A stretch of 54,844 nucleotides of DNA from Thermoguttaceae bacterium (GTDB taxonomy: Bacteria; Planctomycetota; Planctomycetia; Pirellulales; Thermoguttaceae), in contig JANXBW010000030.1 in NCBI GenBank assembly GCA_025060325.1, positions 1 to 54,844 on the forward strand, written 5' to 3'. Below, piece after piece: positions 22,287-39,202 of the stretch. The position numbers were made by a program, and so were the translations under genes. The notes below the pieces were generated by a model, which saw nothing but the letters and a program-made list of their open reading frames with translations, was not told the DNA's origin and made no database searches. Each line of letters opens with the position of its first letter. Within the stretch, counting starts at the first letter, position 1.

Positions 22287-24944
22287 ATGTTTCGGAGAAC
22301 CCTGGATCAATCGCTTAACGCTAAGGCGGTAAGAGTAGGTGCTGCTTTAGTTGCCCTGTGGGTTGGGATGGGCACGCTTCCCGGGACTACCCTTTCCGAG
22401 CCCTTGCCGCCATGCCCCCAGATTGACCGGATTGTCAACGCCATATCCGCAGCAAGCGCTGAGGTGCCATTCTCTTTCATGTACGGCGAGCGGTCTTCGC
22501 GGGAGTTCCTCCCGCAGTGGGCCAGCATACGGCAGGAAGTGCGGGTAAACGCGACCACAGTCCGTCTTGTGCAGACCTGGCAAGATCCTGCCAAACGGCT
22601 TGAAGTTCGCTGGGAGGCGATCCGTTATGAGGATTTTCCGGTGATCGAGTGGACGATTTTCTTCCGCAACATGGGTAGCGATTCCACGGAGATTCTGCAA
22701 CAGGTTCACGCAGTGGACCTAAGCCTTTCGGCCGAGCCGGCTGCGGAGGTCGTGCTTCATCATCATGTCGGTTCGGAGGCGACGGCGTCCGATTATGCCC
22801 CGCGGCAAACTCCGCTACCTCCCGGCCAAAAGATTGAGTTGGCTCCAGTTGGTGGCCGGCCAAGCAATGGCGTATGGCCCTACTTTAATTTGGCCATGGA
22901 AAAGCGTGGAGTGATTTTCGCCGTCGGCTGGCCGGGTCAGTGGCGGGCTAGCTTTGCTCGGTCGGAAACCGGTGCGGTCGAGCTTCGTGCTGGCCAGCAA
23001 TTTCTGCGGGCCAAGCTCTTGCCTGGCGAAGAAATCCGCACGCCTCTGGTGGTGCTCCTGTTTTGGGAAGGTGACCGGTTGAAATCGCAAAACATTTGGC
23101 GGCGGTGGATGATTGCGCATAACATCCCGAGACCAAGTGGCAAGCTCCCTTCCCCCATGTTCTTAGCGTCAAGTTCACGGGCGTACGAAGAAATGATCCA
23201 CGCCAACGAAGAAAATCAAAAAATGCATATCGACCGGTATTTGCAGGAAAAAATCAACATCGATTATTGGTGGATGGACGCGGGGTGGTATGTCCAGGAG
23301 TATGGTTGGCCACATGTAGGCACTTGGGAGGTGGACCGGCGGCGATTCCCGCGGGGTCTCCGCGCCATTAGTGATTACGCCCATGCCCGAGGGGTAAAAA
23401 TCTTGGTGTGGTTCGAGCCGGAGCGCGTCATGCCCGGCACGTGGCTTTATGAAAATCACCCGGAATGGCTTTTAAGCACCTCGGGCCGGACAAATCTGCT
23501 AGCTGATCTTCGCGTTTGGCGCTCCGCCAAGATTGGCAAGCCGGACCCCTGTGTTGTTCTGAACACAAGTACGGAGGAACGGCAAATGGCGGGGATAGCC
23601 TGGCCGGGACAGACGGTTTCCTTTCACCCAGGCGGCGAGGGCCAGTTTGCGGTAATTCGCTACATAGCTGACGAAGCAGGCGTACATGAAGTCGAAGCTA
23701 CCTTCACCGGGCTGGACCGGGCACCCACTACTACCGAGGTGCTCGTGTTAGCAAAAGGGGAGCTGCTCTTTCGCGGCTGGCTTAATCTCCGTGGAGAGGG
23801 AAATAGCCAAACCTTCGATGGTAAGGTGGCCCTTTCCCCTGGGGACACCGTGGATTTTGTCGTCGGCTGGGGAAATGGGACCCACATCTGCGACACAACG
23901 GGGATCGTAGCTCAGGTTGTGACTCCTTCCGGAAAAGTACACGATGTGGCAAGGGAGTTTGGGACGGAGGCTAATCCCGCCGGGAGGTGGAGCTATGGCT
24001 GGGTGCCCGGAGGCGAAAAGCCGGATCTGTCTAAATTTATTCTTTTTGACCGCCCCGGCACTGGAAGCCCCCCTGAGCCGCGACTTCTGAACTTGGGTAA
24101 TCCGGCTGCGCGGCAGTGGCTGACGGAGCATATCAGCCGCCTAATCGTTGACGAAGGGATTGACCTTTACCGCCAGGATTTCAACATCGATCCACTTCCA
24201 TTCTGGCGGGCAAACGACGAGCCTGATCGCGAGGGCATCACGGAAAATAAGTACGTTCAAGGTTTTCTTTGGTTTTGGGACGAGCTTCGGCGGCGATTTC
24301 CGGCCATGTTGATTGATTCGTGCGCAAGTGGTGGACGTCGCAATGATCTAGAAACGATGCGTCGGGCTGTGCCGCTTTGGCGAAGCGACTATGCCTACGA
24401 GCCGATCGGCCACCAGTGCATGACGTATGGCATTAGTCTTTGGCTGCCTTATCATGGCACCGGCACGGTTGCGTTTACGGGGGCACCTTACTATGGAAGT
24501 GGCTGGACTCCCGTAGAACCGTACGCCTTTTGGTCCAATGCTGCCCCAAGCTTAGGCTGCGGGGTGGACATTCGGGTGCCTAATCTCGATTACGATACGC
24601 TTCGGCGGCTTTGCCAAAGCTGGCGGACCTTCAGCCGCTTTTACTACGGCGACTTCTATCCGCTTACTGCGTACACGCAATCGCCTGCAGAGTGGATGGC
24701 TTGGCAATTCCACATGCCTGAGGACCAGGCCGGAGCGGTCCAGGTGTTTCGGCGTCAGGAATCGACCGTTGATGAAGTAAAGCTCCGTCTTCGCGACATT
24801 GATCCTCAGTCCAATTACAAGATTACTGCGCTTGAAGGCCAAATGCCATCGAAATTAACGGGCCGGCAATTAGCCGAGGAGGGCTTTGCCGTGCGCATTC
24901 CCACCCGACCGGGCGTGGTGGTCTTCGTTTACGAAAGGGAGTAA
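22287..24944 (+). CDS. Alpha-galactosidase-like GH36 enzyme with an inserted domain
   Basis: This exported glycoside hydrolase, 885 residues, probably removes alpha-linked galactose from oligo- or polysaccharides. After the signal peptide comes the N-terminal beta-supersandwich (about 35-290), then the (beta/alpha)8 barrel with 'YWWMDAGWYV' (Asp331), 'LVWFEPERVMPGTWL', 'LYRQDFNIDP' (nucleophile Asp631), 'DSCASGGRRNDLE' and 'LWRSDYAYEP' (acid/base Asp701). A C-terminal beta domain closes it. About 170 residues (roughly 407-580) are inserted inside the barrel between the 'HPEWLL' region and 'LNLGNPAARQWL'. They look like a beta-sandwich ('GGEGQFAVIRYIADEAGVHEVE', 'KVALSPGDTVDFVVGW'), resembling a carbohydrate-binding module. 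The GGAGGAGGAAA site decides the ATG at 22287. Confidence 0.9.
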   Translation: MFRRTLDQSLNAKAVRVGAALVALWVGMGTLPGTTLSEPLPPCPQIDRIVNAISAASAEVPFSFMYGERSSREFLPQWASIRQEVRVNATTVRLVQTWQDPAKRLEVRWEAIRYEDFPVIEWTIFFRNMGSDSTEILQQVHAVDLSLSAEPAAEVVLHHHVGSEATASDYAPRQTPLPPGQKIELAPVGGRPSNGVWPYFNLAMEKRGVIFAVGWPGQWRASFARSETGAVELRAGQQFLRAKLLPGEEIRTPLVVLLFWEGDRLKSQNIWRRWMIAHNIPRPSGKLPSPMFLASSSRAYEEMIHANEENQKMHIDRYLQEKINIDYWWMDAGWYVQEYGWPHVGTWEVDRRRFPRGLRAISDYAHARGVKILVWFEPERVMPGTWLYENHPEWLLSTSGRTNLLADLRVWRSAKIGKPDPCVVLNTSTEERQMAGIAWPGQTVSFHPGGEGQFAVIRYIADEAGVHEVEATFTGLDRAPTTTEVLVLAKGELLFRGWLNLRGEGNSQTFDGKVALSPGDTVDFVVGWGNGTHICDTTGIVAQVVTPSGKVHDVAREFGTEANPAGRWSYGWVPGGEKPDLSKFILFDRPGTGSPPEPRLLNLGNPAARQWLTEHISRLIVDEGIDLYRQDFNIDPLPFWRANDEPDREGITENKYVQGFLWFWDELRRRFPAMLIDSCASGGRRNDLETMRRAVPLWRSDYAYEPIGHQCMTYGISLWLPYHGTGTVAFTGAPYYGSGWTPVEPYAFWSNAAPSLGCGVDIRVPNLDYDTLRRLCQSWRTFSRFYYGDFYPLTAYTQSPAEWMAWQFHMPEDQAGAVQVFRRQESTVDEVKLRLRDIDPQSNYKITALEGQMPSKLTGRQLAEEGFAVRIPTRPGVVVFVYERE

Positions 24945-34723: not shown

Positions 34724-35644
34724 CGACATCACGCACACGGCCAATCCACATTCCCGGCATGTCGTAGGCGTTTTACTCGGTGGCAGCTCCCGGCCCTCTG
34801 TCTTAGTCGTCAGAGTGAATAACCGGAGGAGGCTTGCGACATCGGCGCGCTGGGTCGTGAGCTGCCCCCGATGAGCGTCCTATTCGGCGACTGACCGAGG
34901 CTTTACGGACGGCAAACTTGGCTTGCGCGAAGTTCATGAACCGACGACCCCCACAGGTGGGGCTTGGCACCTGGCCCGCGTCGCGTTAGGCCGATCGCGT
35001 CGTCCGAGCTGCCTCCATGCCAGCTACCGGGGTATGAGTGTTCGGATCTAGTCCGAACACCCGGGGCTGGAATGAGCCACCGGCACCGCACCCGCGCCAC
35101 AATCTCGCGGAGCTTTTTGGTCATTTGGAAGCTTAAAGCCCGAAGCGTGCTTCTCCCGATTCGCGCGGCGGCCACTAGCCTCACTCTTTCGGTCTGAGAG
35201 CTGGCATTGTTGACGGTCCGGTCAACGGGTACTCCTATGGAGAGTAGGCTCCTGAGACCGAAGATGCCGTAGGGCCGAATCGAAGCTATTCGCTCTACTC
35301 ACCCTGTTAGCTTTGGTTTGATCGAGCTTCTCATCTTTCACAGGCCCAGTTGCCGTTGACAAAGCCCGCCTTAGGTAACCTCGCCAAAACTTGCTGGCCT
35401 CACAAACTCATTCAACATTTCCTGTAGCATTGATTGACCACCCCTTGGTCGACGAGTTAACTTTGGCTTTTTGCGTGCAAAGTTTGCACTCATAGAGCCG
35501 CTGAGGTTAAATCGCTATCATCCGGCCGGTGAGGAACCGGGGTTCATAAATCCTTCCACTATGCCTGGAAGGGGGCATTGGCGGATGTCCTAACGGGTTC
35601 GGGGCAGCCGTGTAAACCTGCTCATGATCGAGGGAGAAGGTGTC
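34724..35644. other. Long gene-free stretch upstream of the GH106 gene
   Basis: About 920 bases with no supported gene. It contains a perfect 9-bp hairpin at 35038-35060, listed separately. I compared the stretch with common riboswitch cores (cobalamin, c-di-GMP, SAM, TPP) without a match. The frame at 34964-35197 has no motifs. Confidence 0.4.
35038..35060. repeat. Perfect 9-bp hairpin
   Basis: GTGTTCGGA-TCTAG-TCCGAACAC. It lies 330 bases after the thioredoxin-like gene and 590 before the GH106 gene. Without a T-run it is not a standard terminator. It could be an operator or part of a non-coding RNA. Confidence 0.5.
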
Positions 35645-38600
35645 ATGGCTTATCTGTCCATGTGCAAGCTTCGGGGACTGCTTACGTTGTGGTTAATTGT
35701 CTTGCCCATTTCGTGGCAAAGCACGGAAAAACCGGCCTTGGCCGGTGGCGCAAGCTGTGGTGAATCCCAAGTGGATCTGCGGCAGAGGTTTCTTTCGCCC
35801 GAGGGACGGGCTAGGCCCGCAGTTTACTGGTGCTGGCTAAATGGCTTTGTCGATCCCGAGGCCCTCCGCGCAGAGGTGGCCGAGTTTGCCGAAAAAGGAA
35901 TCACCGGACTTTATGTATTCGATATCGGTGCCCGCAGCGGCGCTAAGCCGGTTCCGGCAGGGCCGGCTTTCCTTAGCCCCCAGTGGCTTGAGTCACTTAG
36001 GGTGGCGGTCTCATCAGCCCGGTCCTGGGGACTTGAGATAGGGCTTGTCACGTCAAGTAGCTGGAATGCCGGTGGGCCTTGGATCCCACCGGAGCTTGCG
36101 TCGATGGGGCTCTATCAGGCTACTGTGGTCTGGGAAGGGCCGGGGCGAAAGCGGGAAAAGCTCCCTTTGCCTCAACTTCCTCCACAGGCACCCCGGGATG
36201 AAGCCGGGCGCCCCCTTTATTACAAGGACGTGGCAGTGCTGGCTCTTCCGGAAAGAAAGGTGCGGACAACCGAATTTTTTGTTTTTCGTTTGCGGGGGAC
36301 GGAAATCCATCTTGTTGATCGGGCACTTTTTTACCAAGCTGAGGCGCGCGCCGTTGACGGGCAAAAGCCTGTCCGCCCGGTGAAAGAGTTTGCTGTCTGG
36401 GTTTCGTCTACAAGTGATGAGCCAGGAGCGTTTCACCTAGTGCATCGGGGAACGCTTCGCCCGGAACCAGGGCCACAGGAAATTCGATTTTCCCCCGTCC
36501 CCGCACGCTATGCCATGCTTGAACTTGTAGAGAGCTATCGACCGGAACTTGCGGGTTTTGACCTTGCCGAGTGGGAACTCTACACCACAGGCGGAGAGAA
36601 TGTCGTTTCGGCGTTTACACCTGGCGGGACAAAAATGGGAGCAGCCCTTTTGTGGTGGGGGTCACAAATTGCTCCTGAGGGTCCAGGTGCGGCCGCGTGT
36701 GTTCACGATGGAATTAAAGACCAACCGCGAGGAGTGTGGAGTTCCGCCGACCCTCCGCCCCTTGTGTTAGAAAATGTCTCGCAGGTTGTTGACCTAACCG
36801 ATTTACTCCAAGCCGAGGGTGTGCTTGAATGGGATGTGCCGCCCGGAAAATGGCGAATTATTCGCTACGGCTGCGGCAACACCGGACAGCGGCTTGTCCT
36901 GCCAAGTCCTCAGTCCGGCGGGCTGGTGCTCGATCATTTAAATCCACAAGCGACGGAGTTTCATTTCCGCACAATCGTCTCAAGGCTCAAAGAGCACTTA
37001 GGACCGGATTTCGGCGGCGCTTTGCGGCAGCTTTATAGCTGTAGTTATGAAGTGCGGGGGGCCACGTGGACGCCTAAATTCCTGGATGAATTTCGTCACC
37101 GTCGGGGTTATGACATGCGGCGGTATCTTCCCGCGCTGGATGGTTATCTTATCGGCGGCTGGGAGAAGACACGGCGTTTTCTCCATGACTTCCGCAAAAC
37201 GCTGGGCGAACTGCTTGTTGACGGATTTTACCGCACAGCCGCTCGGGTTTGTCATGAAGAGGGGCTTCTCTTGTGTGCAGAAGCTGGTGGGCCGGGGTTA
37301 CCGCTTCACCAAGTACCTGTAGATGCTTTGCAGGCCCAGGGCGCGATTGACATTCCGCGAGGCGAATTTTGGATCCAGCATGACGTCTGGGTAGTCAAGG
37401 AGACAGCCTGCGCCGCACACATTTATGGTAAGGCGCTTGTGGACATGGAAGCGTTTACAAGCTGGCGGCATTGGCAAGATGGTCCTTGGCAGCTAAAGCC
37501 AATCGCTGATCGGGCCTTCGTGGAGGGAGCCAACCGGTTCACGTTTCATACGGCGGCACATCGGCCAGCAAGTGTGCGTCCTCCGGGGTGGGTGTATCAT
37601 GCCGGCACGCACTTTTCTCCCCACATCGCTTGGTGGCCGTTAGCTAAGCCATTTGTCGACTACATCGCCCGCTGTTCCGCAGTGCTTCAAAACGGAGCTT
37701 ATGTGGCCGATGTTTGCTATTACTACGGCGACGGGGGCTTTAAGTATGTGCCGCCAAAACATGTGGACCCCGGGTTGGGCTTTGGCTACGACTACGATGT
37801 GTGTAATGAGGAGGTGATTTTGCAGAGAGCGGAAGTCCGGGATGGTAAGCTTCACTTCGGATCCGATCAAAGCACGGGCTACGAGGTCTTGGTTCTGCCA
37901 GAGAGCGAAGAAATATCGCCGCGGGTACTAGCTCGGTTGGCGGAGCTTGTGGAGGATGGTTTGACCTTGGTGGGGCGCCGGCCGAAGCGAAGTAATTCGC
38001 TAAGCGACTATCCCTTATGCGATCAACGGGTGGCTGAGCTTGCCGATCGGCTGTGGGGGAAAGACAGCCCGGCAGAAAAAGGCGAAAATCGAGTGGGACG
38101 CGGTCGAGTTATTTGGGGAAAACCGGTGCGCCAGATACTGCGCGAACGAAACTTGCCGCCTGATTTCTGGCTAGAAAGCCTTGGGGACTGGAGGTCGCCG
38201 GAGGGGAAGCTTCCGGATCACCTCGGGGCGCCGCCGATTGACTATGTGCACAGATCGGGAACGCAGGCGGATGTTTATTTCGTGTGGAACCGCACGGACC
38301 GCTGGCAAAGCCATTGGGTCCAGTTACGAAGTGGGGGCGATCCCCCGGAGTTATGGGATCCGGTATCGGGGGCGATGGTGGAAGCACCCGTTTACCGCCG
38401 GGTCGGACCTAGCACAAGCGTGTTCGTGCAACTTCCGCCTTGGGGCAGTTTGTTTATAGTGCTCTTTAAAGAAGCTGCCGGAGGAGAGCCGGAAAGGGTA
38501 ACTGTCCCACCAATCGTGGGCGTGGAAAGAAACGGGATGCCAGTGCTTATAAATTCCTCCGACGAACCGCCGGTTTTGTTTATGCCTGTGGGCCAAGGCC

Positions 38601-39202
38601 GGGAGCCAAGCCTTGTTATCCGACAGCCTGGTCATTACCGAATCTTTCGCCAAAACGGTAAGTTCGAGGAACACCTCGCCGAGCTATCTCCACCAAAGGA
38701 AGTGCCAGGCCCCTGGCTGGTGCGGTTTCTGCCGGGGCGAGGCGCGCCCCCGGAGGCTGTCTTTCCGACGCTTATTGACTGGAGTCAACATCCGGAGCCG
38801 GGCATCCGTTATTATTCTGGCGTAGCAACTTATGAGGCAGAGTTTGAACTTTCCCCTCCACTCTTACCGCGGGAGCGCCTCATACTCGGTTTAGGGGAGG
38901 TCCATTTCTTGGCCGAGGTTGCTGTCAACGGTCAAGTTGTGGGGAGCGCGTGGACAGCGCCTTGGGAGATTGACATAACAACTTTCGTGCAAGCGGGCAA
39001 GAACAAGCTGGTTATCCGCGTGGCCAACGATTGGAATAACCGGTTGGTGGGTGACGCTTTAGACGCAACAAGCGAGCCGGTCGCCGAGACCAATATGCCC
39101 TGGTCCATTTCTTGGCGTCGCTCATGGAAAGACACGCCTCTTCAACGGGCTGGTCTCATCGGACCAGTTACCCTAAAGCGGCTGACGGCTGTGCCTTTAT
39201 GA
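35645..39202 (+). CDS. GH106-type alpha-L-rhamnosidase, secreted
   Basis: A 1185-residue exported glycoside hydrolase that probably removes alpha-L-rhamnose from plant or microbial polysaccharides. The signal peptide is 'LRGLLTLWLIVLPISW'. Family landmarks are 'RPAVYWCWLNGFVDPEALRA' just after the signal, 'GITGLYVFDIGA', 'GLEIGLVTSSSWNAGGPWI', 'EFRHRRGYDMRRYLPALDGY' and 'CAEAGGPGLPLHQVPVDALQ'. The C-terminus is a beta-sandwich like that of GH2 enzymes ('VAVNGQVVGSAWTAPWEIDI', 'NKLVIRVANDWNNRLVGD'). GAGAAGG seven bases upstream supports the ATG at 35645; one at 35624 is possible. An exported oxidoreductase gene converges on it downstream. Confidence 0.88.
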   Translation: MAYLSMCKLRGLLTLWLIVLPISWQSTEKPALAGGASCGESQVDLRQRFLSPEGRARPAVYWCWLNGFVDPEALRAEVAEFAEKGITGLYVFDIGARSGAKPVPAGPAFLSPQWLESLRVAVSSARSWGLEIGLVTSSSWNAGGPWIPPELASMGLYQATVVWEGPGRKREKLPLPQLPPQAPRDEAGRPLYYKDVAVLALPERKVRTTEFFVFRLRGTEIHLVDRALFYQAEARAVDGQKPVRPVKEFAVWVSSTSDEPGAFHLVHRGTLRPEPGPQEIRFSPVPARYAMLELVESYRPELAGFDLAEWELYTTGGENVVSAFTPGGTKMGAALLWWGSQIAPEGPGAAACVHDGIKDQPRGVWSSADPPPLVLENVSQVVDLTDLLQAEGVLEWDVPPGKWRIIRYGCGNTGQRLVLPSPQSGGLVLDHLNPQATEFHFRTIVSRLKEHLGPDFGGALRQLYSCSYEVRGATWTPKFLDEFRHRRGYDMRRYLPALDGYLIGGWEKTRRFLHDFRKTLGELLVDGFYRTAARVCHEEGLLLCAEAGGPGLPLHQVPVDALQAQGAIDIPRGEFWIQHDVWVVKETACAAHIYGKALVDMEAFTSWRHWQDGPWQLKPIADRAFVEGANRFTFHTAAHRPASVRPPGWVYHAGTHFSPHIAWWPLAKPFVDYIARCSAVLQNGAYVADVCYYYGDGGFKYVPPKHVDPGLGFGYDYDVCNEEVILQRAEVRDGKLHFGSDQSTGYEVLVLPESEEISPRVLARLAELVEDGLTLVGRRPKRSNSLSDYPLCDQRVAELADRLWGKDSPAEKGENRVGRGRVIWGKPVRQILRERNLPPDFWLESLGDWRSPEGKLPDHLGAPPIDYVHRSGTQADVYFVWNRTDRWQSHWVQLRSGGDPPELWDPVSGAMVEAPVYRRVGPSTSVFVQLPPWGSLFIVLFKEAAGGEPERVTVPPIVGVERNGMPVLINSSDEPPVLFMPVGQGREPSLVIRQPGHYRIFRQNGKFEEHLAELSPPKEVPGPWLVRFLPGRGAPPEAVFPTLIDWSQHPEPGIRYYSGVATYEAEFELSPPLLPRERLILGLGEVHFLAEVAVNGQVVGSAWTAPWEIDITTFVQAGKNKLVIRVANDWNNRLVGDALDATSEPVAETNMPWSISWRRSWKDTPLQRAGLIGPVTLKRLTAVPL

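Follow-up and report, generated by a model that had tools for sequence, protein, structure and literature searches.

Glycoside hydrolases (GHs) whose catalytic domain is interrupted by a carbohydrate-binding module (CBM) have been described in several families. The GH10 xylanases Xyn10C/Pm25 carry CBMs in the beta3-alpha3 loop, and the GH13 enzyme SusG has CBM58 in its domain B (PMC7848910, available sections). In excerpts of PMC9063844, the GH5 enzyme MtGlu5 has an inserted CBM29-like domain that shares a groove with the barrel and whose deletion lowers efficiency; in those of PMC5408701, a CBM35 in the seventh loop of the GH66 enzyme CITase supplies a distal subsite and contacts the substrate. 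A GH26 beta-mannanase with an internal CBM112 is reported in the accessible part of PMC13357471, which also mentions GH148 for internal modules and calls the reasons for an internal rather than a terminal binding module in glycosidases poorly understood. Our literature search, mainly of open-access papers, found no published internal module in GH36 or GH2. Here we describe a GH36 enzyme of 885 amino acids, encoded at 22287..24944 on the forward strand of a 54,844-nucleotide contig from a Thermoguttaceae bacterium (JANXBW010000030.1; this whole stretch is called the window), whose barrel contains such a block. We consider the block to be probably a mobile accessory carbohydrate-binding-like module of a family not described in Pfam, located in the beta3-alpha3 loop of a probably secreted enzyme. 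We infer its sugar binding, its ligand, the secretion of the enzyme, and any effect on catalysis from the evidence set out below.

An inserted beta domain in a GH36 barrel

The window protein belongs to GH36 (clan GH-D) by its match to Melibiase PF02065 (7.5e-28; 97.9 bits against a curated cut-off of 27). This match was split in two, with the best part at residues 320-404 and the second part starting at residue 600, and neither Pfam nor NCBIfam had a model above cut-off over the block between them. When aligned with structurally characterized GH36 proteins, the sequence jumped from residue 402 to residue 600, where those proteins have about 8 residues, and relatives without the block aligned cleanly on both its sides. 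The first-pass annotation, made from the sequence alone, had described a beta-rich block inside the barrel ahead of the nucleophile strand; the alignment jump and the AlphaFold2 models agree with it. Its limits of 407-580 (about 170 residues) were right in place and slightly short, as homologs defined a block of about 195 residues with limits at about 403-596 (23493..24074), and the module profile spanned 402-594.

AlphaFold2 predicted the block alone (24 alignment rows) as an almost wholly beta domain, a beta-sandwich, with a predicted local distance difference test score (pLDDT) of 90.6 and a predicted template modeling score (pTM) of 0.90; residues 40-885 (72 rows) gave 92.1 and 0.87. In the model, barrel strands 1-3 were followed by the block, then by a helix and the nucleophile strand, which places the block in the beta3-alpha3 loop, at the barrel's catalytic face. 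Taken as a domain of its own, as the first-pass annotation had proposed, it was modeled as a separate beta domain and had no counterpart above cut-off among Pfam families.

The distance between the anchors on either side of the site was bimodal over all measurable GH36 open reading frames (ORFs), being 186-219 or -2 to 17 residues with none between. A contig scan that kept the best 80 of 201 yielded 79 named loci, two of which (L135 and L142) were not measurable. Among the remaining 77, 24 had an insert of 186-204 residues and 53 had only GH36 ORFs without it (spacer of at most 17). Together with the window protein, the Thermogutta terrifontis ortholog and that of an order-mate (L057), these 24 loci brought the number of distinct inserted GH36 proteins to 27, which answers the first-pass suggestion to count homologues sharing the insertion. 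The 24 loci were labeled as Planctomycetota or lower taxa (13), Armatimonadota or lower taxa (9), a Victivallales metagenome-assembled genome (MAG), and a “Nealsonbacteria” MAG. The GH36 protein of the last (L074, Candidatus Nealsonbacteria) clustered tightly with Planctomycetota proteins in the catalytic tree, and its contig was probably mis-binned. In genome samples, the insert was present in at least 2 of 294 genomes of the phylum (32 with any query match; at most 3 candidates scored per genome) and in at least 5 of 97 genomes of the order (19 with any match).

That the block might belong to the normal GH36 fold, as an enlarged native loop, or be an assembly artefact, is practically excluded: it was missing from relatives whose flanking parts are 57-66% identical (L047, L003/L096, and L090), the spacing was bimodal, 27 proteins carried it, it folded alone, and homologous modules occurred elsewhere. 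The full-length model, too, displayed it as separate from the normal GH36 fold, as the first-pass annotation had supposed. An autonomous domain that interrupts the catalytic domain and is absent in near relatives, it is an internal accessory module, and the same holds for its GH2 counterparts described below.

Outside the block, the protein kept the GH36 fold. The catalytic landmarks noted in the first pass were confirmed by PF02065, by the alignment of D631 and D701, and by the fold match to AgaB (4fnq; Z 36.2, root mean square deviation 3.1, 620 aligned of 723), the full-length model having the N-terminal beta domain, barrel, and C-terminal beta domain of the family. The ORF opens with the ATG at 22287, behind the Shine-Dalgarno-like GGGAGGAGG, and runs to a stop at 24944; by eye, the N-terminus reads like a signal peptide. 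The N-terminal beta domain (about residues 56-290; 22452..23156), identified from alignment and models, matched PF16875 weakly (E 0.027, under cut-off). The first part of the (beta/alpha)8 barrel (23157..23492) was assigned from PF02065 and the model, in which strands 1-3 occupy residues 291-295, 327-330, and 371-376; the remainder, from helix alpha3 and strand beta4, was placed by the model at 24075..24626, with an approximate 3' limit. D631 (24177..24179), the predicted nucleophile, aligned with D478 of AgaB, and D701 (24387..24389), the predicted acid/base, with D548; both were invariant in 19 aligned sequences and in all 27 inserted proteins, and these are the catalytic roles that we assume for them. 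PDB titles name the AgaA mutants D478A (4fnu) and D548N (4fnt). D331-A332 (23277..23282) aligned with an Asp-Asp pair in AgaB and LaMel36A, to which we ascribe a role in sugar contact. Because A332, invariant in the same two sets, replaces the second Asp, plain alpha-galactosidase activity is not to be assumed, and the Asp-Ala pair may mean that the substrate is not a plain alpha-galactoside. NCBIfam matches to the protein were all far below threshold, the best, to a beta-L-arabinopyranosidase, scoring 54 bits where the cut-off is 1100. No record of the plasmid collection had one place covering 80% of the query; the ten matches listed of 259 were all GH36-like, with 23.7-25.9% identity.

The module in other proteins and its history

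The module was not restricted to GH36 barrels. When 392 genomes of the phylum were searched with its profile, it was detected in at least 43 at E<=1e-3 (at most 8 candidates scored per genome). Copies outside GH36 barrels are those above 100 bits in a local profile search, unless described as weaker. Ten GH2 proteins or fragments carried it: L070, L086/L175, L115, L131, L176, L177, L178, two in L223, and L224. In these carriers, PF02836 matched only to position 162-169 of 302, after which the module followed; four GH2 relatives without the module had about 4 residues at the insertion point, between the strand ending SGRWD and the SNP motif and upstream of the SEYG strand. We take SEYG to mark the nucleophile site of GH2 and LLNE its acid/base site. 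The module-bearing GH2 gene adjoined an inserted GH36 gene on the same strand in L070 and L086/L175 and lay near a GH36 gene without insert in L131 and L115; the GH2 sequences of L086/L175 and L115 were fragments, and that of L131 reached the end of its locus. L223 and L224 are from a single genome (G479), which is also that of the Victivallales MAG locus with an inserted GH36 (L068), and together encode three GH2 enzymes whose barrel contains the module; two of the genes are in tandem. The same genome has, inside an open frame of 14,725 residues, a divergent copy of the module that scores 77-82 bits (L225; G479:C246:17500-21500). Two GH36 catalytic domains were encoded in one ORF of 1349 amino acids (L063:632-4678 / L102:4824-8870), followed by module fragments in what seems to be the remnant of a GH2 gene.

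Further copies lay outside both kinds of barrel. One GH36 protein without insert (L091) had the module at its N-terminus (253 bits) and no NPCBM domain, and a PEP-CTERM protein (L054) had a copy of 114 bits. Weaker copies were found in further PEP-CTERM-type proteins and at the N-terminus of a distant GH36 (L180). Distant copies were also seen in L031:1299-5450, which has PSD domains by Pfam, and in similar long untyped ORFs in L151-L174.

These copies differed in internal order. The module profile was split into a main beta-sandwich part, B (residues 402-550 of the window protein; 23490..23936), and a tail with a WSYG motif, A (residues 551-595; 23937..24071). Wherever both parts scored in a copy from GH36 or GH2, the order was B-A. 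The order was A-B in L055 (two copies), L157, and L154, which are thus circularly permuted relative to the GH36 and GH2 copies, part A preceding B in PEP-CTERM-type proteins. A PEP-CTERM motif was identified by Pfam in L055 and by eye in L157, and none was seen by eye in L154. L054 appeared by eye to be A-B, its A part not scoring; L180, L223, and L224 were outside this test. Adjoining ends may have eased insertion.

Phylogenetic analyses spoke against a simple vertical history. A tree of the catalytic part had 108 rows, after removal of duplicates, short rows, and rows with less than 34% identity in the N part; an unresolved set of 49 contained three groups of inserted rows, L085 and L086 lay outside it, and the three states needed 4 changes. 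In a reduced tree of 82 rows (12 distant rows taken out and 14 thinned, including inserted L076 and L077), uniting all 24 inserted rows cost 154.7 log-likelihood units (p-AU, the P value of the approximately unbiased test, 4e-61), so that a single vertical origin of the GH36 insert was rejected. A branch with support 91 (not starred) separated the 22 inserted rows other than L085 and L086 from the rest of this tree. In a tree of the module itself (35 rows), the 7 GH2 modules grouped together (96/85). Those of GH36 were not one clade, although a single GH36 clade was not rejected (p-AU 0.288); uniting the 25 other GH36 modules without L085 and L086 was borderline (p-AU 0.051). These tests indicate repeated entry of the insert into GH36 or its passage between GH36 lineages. 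The module would then be a mobile unit, occurring in GH2 barrels and at the N-terminus of one GH36 and having repeatedly entered, or been exchanged within, GH36 at a homologous site.

A more specific scenario, to which we give clearly less credence, is that of a new CBM family acting as an insertion cassette. Permutation relative to the planctomycete PEP-CTERM-type domain would have joined its ends; it would then have dropped into the active-site loops of GH36 and GH2, two unrelated kinds of TIM-barrel glycosidase, spread between GH36 lineages by recombination at a homologous site, and provided neighboring GH36 and GH2 enzymes with a common internal grip for one xanthan-type heteropolysaccharide. 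This combination as a whole seems to us rather doubtful.

Carbohydrate binding and rival functions

The first-pass annotation had likened the block to a CBM. Several indirect lines sustain this likeness, namely weak fold matches to CBMs, recurrence in GH2, the N-terminal copy in L091, the lack of NPCBM in inserted enzymes, a LamG-type domain in the same slot, and the link of an ortholog to xanthan; the fold matches themselves turned out to be weak and level with those to non-CBM folds, and binding is what we infer. Pfam had no family above cut-off for the window module; across 24 modules the best Pfam match was PPC (4.4e-4), which had matches (E up to 1) in 5 of them. Searches of the PDB by sequence found no significant match to the module. 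By fold, its neighbors were weakly matching jelly rolls. In Foldseek, the best match was MiXBM (7ehg; E 3.5e-4, template modeling [TM] scores 0.30/0.41, 15% identity), and others were CBM6, CBM35, and CBM51 as well as TNF- and C1q-type proteins. In VIA, CBM51 (Z 7.1-7.6), CBM4, and CBM61 were among those ranking after the top two. The absence of a CBM family from these fold lists does not exclude it as kin.

The distribution of N-terminal domains provided a second line. Of the 61 non-inserted GH36 ORFs in the named loci, 35 had NPCBM (PF08305), against none of the 27 inserted ORFs (Fisher 3.7e-8, a value that is only descriptive because the sequences are related). Derivation of the block from the NPCBM of its relatives was ruled out, as the module shows no NPCBM match. 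In an order-mate (L056:499-3741; G372:C17), about 219 residues at the same barrel site matched Laminin_G_3 (2.6e-16) and not the module. Most likely, the module takes over the job done by the N-terminal NPCBM in many related enzymes: it would put a sugar-gripping surface next to the working face of the barrel and hold the polysaccharide beside it while the barrel cuts.

The third line concerns xanthan. The inserted gene of T. terrifontis (G167) was the sole PF02065 gene found in that genome and came immediately after a DUF1080/PF06439 gene of the same orientation. In the available text of PMC5673643, GH36 is mentioned once, for THTE_1560, which is called extracellular and reported as up-regulated on xanthan; excerpts of the review PMC10881899 list, among xanthan-activated genes, THTE_1560 and THTE_1561, a DUF1080 endo-xanthanase. 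The T. terrifontis ortholog is very likely THTE_1560. In the part of PMC9007349 available, THTE_1561 is cited as an endo-xanthanase/lichenase and other DUF1080 proteins are 3-ketoglycoside hydrolases. The enzyme that contains MiXBM (7EHG) is MXL, a xanthan lyase from Microbacterium sp. XT11, according to the same excerpts of PMC10881899; this favors the xanthan link, weak as the match is. The neighbors of the window gene were a DUF6807 gene, an aldo/keto reductase, and sugar-oxidoreductase-type genes, with a GH106-type gene about 10 kb downstream (35624-39202) whose C-terminal end (residues about 1058-1139) also matches GH2 sugar-binding N domains.

Several observations weigh against a carbohydrate-binding role. 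All TM scores were below 0.5 among the Foldseek matches listed; 7ehg was not in the best 50 VIA matches listed; and, with Z scores of 8.6 and 8.1, a GOLD domain and a mitogen led the VIA matches, the Z scores of CBM51 being level with those of other jelly rolls. We dismissed the top two (the second being the YPM mitogen) as kin, given their Z below 9 and a common jelly-roll arrangement. At least 150 residues preceded the catalytic part in 36 of 61 non-inserted and only 3 of 27 inserted ORFs. The order-mate with the LamG/ConA-type insert also had an N-terminal NPCBM, which means that an insert does not always replace NPCBM. The window's contig had no PF06439/DUF1080 gene, and no module-type GH2 lay beside the window gene. 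As one module was found in the window's genome (8 of 24 candidates scored) and PF06439 was missing from the contig, the link to xanthan comes only by way of the ortholog. In addition, deletion of CBM112 from the GH26 enzyme changed no kinetic parameter significantly, at least in the accessible part of PMC13357471. Finally, sugar binding is not obvious for the distant copies in PEP-CTERM-type proteins and in L031, a cytochrome-type protein that has PSD domains.

Some of these points would equally suit a structural or oligomerization domain that stabilizes the loop or makes a subunit contact and binds no sugar. GH36 enzymes are often tetramers. The similarity to CBMs is weak, distant copies occur in non-glycosidases, and the module is strongly conserved, with 27 invariant positions among 24 sequences. 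Nevertheless, the module also sits at the N-terminus of L091 and in GH2 barrels, and a LamG-type domain occupies the same slot in L056; an interface specific to one family would hardly move in this way, and we regard a purely structural role as improbable.

Comparison with known internal modules

The accessory carbohydrate-binding-like module that we favor can be set against several described systems. The GH36 alpha-galactosidases AgaB and LaMel36A share the catalytic fold and both catalytic Asp positions with the window enzyme; they differ in having no insert and in having Asp-Asp where the window subfamily has Asp-Ala. NPCBM is, like the module, an accessory domain of the same enzyme subfamily; it is N-terminal in the ORFs counted above, and the module has no match to PF08305. 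MiXBM resembles the window module in being its best Foldseek match and, through the window protein's ortholog, in the tie to xanthan; it differs in its low TM scores, the lack of a significant sequence match, and another enzyme and placement.

Among enzymes with internal modules, Xyn10C and Pm25 have theirs in the very same loop; they differ in enzyme family and, in the excerpts at hand, in having a CBM4 of measured function where the window module has no known CBM family. SusG is alike in having a CBM within the catalytic region, and GH13 domain B arises at the beta3-alpha3 loop. Its CBM58 binds starch, as far as the excerpted source describes it, and kinship with the window module was checked through PDB searches only. 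MtGlu5, which has a jelly-roll module in the middle of a TIM barrel, differs in enzyme and module and, by the available account, in the experimental proof of its module's function. CITase also has a beta-jelly-roll domain inserted in the barrel, differing in the use of loop 7 and in the CBM35 family of the inserted domain (excerpted text). The GH26 module CBM112 is, in the accessible description, specific for mannan; both it and the window module are formerly undescribed domains that are intercalated in a catalytic domain and occur in other proteins as well.

These systems bear on whether the module could form a lid or subsite extension over the active site, as CBM35 does in CITase, a special form of the carbohydrate-binding reading. 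Its position in the beta3-alpha3 loop, on the catalytic face in the model, would suit such a role, as would the distal subsite given by the inserted CBM35 (PMC5408701, excerpts) and the common groove formed by module and barrel in MtGlu5 (PMC9063844, excerpts). The CBM58 of SusG, in contrast, makes no hydrogen bonds to its catalytic domain in the available part of PMC7848910. We see a lid as a tentative and less probable form of the accessory module.

The first-pass annotation had called a binding domain inside the barrel unusual. This stands for GH36 and GH2, for which no case was found in the mainly open-access literature searched, and not for glycosidases in general, since internal CBMs have been published for GH5, GH10, GH13, GH26, and GH66. 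The module could found a new CBM family, for which it is a concrete candidate, and it adds a putative partner to the little-characterized xanthan-degrading system of Thermogutta. Nature also supplies a matched set, comprising GH36 enzymes with the module inside, with the module at the N-terminus (L091), with NPCBM instead, and with LamG in the slot (L056), together with the module in GH2, which makes the purpose of an internal position directly testable. Internal accessory modules are thus already known in other GH families; what is new here is an undescribed module family and a rich natural series in which it occurs.

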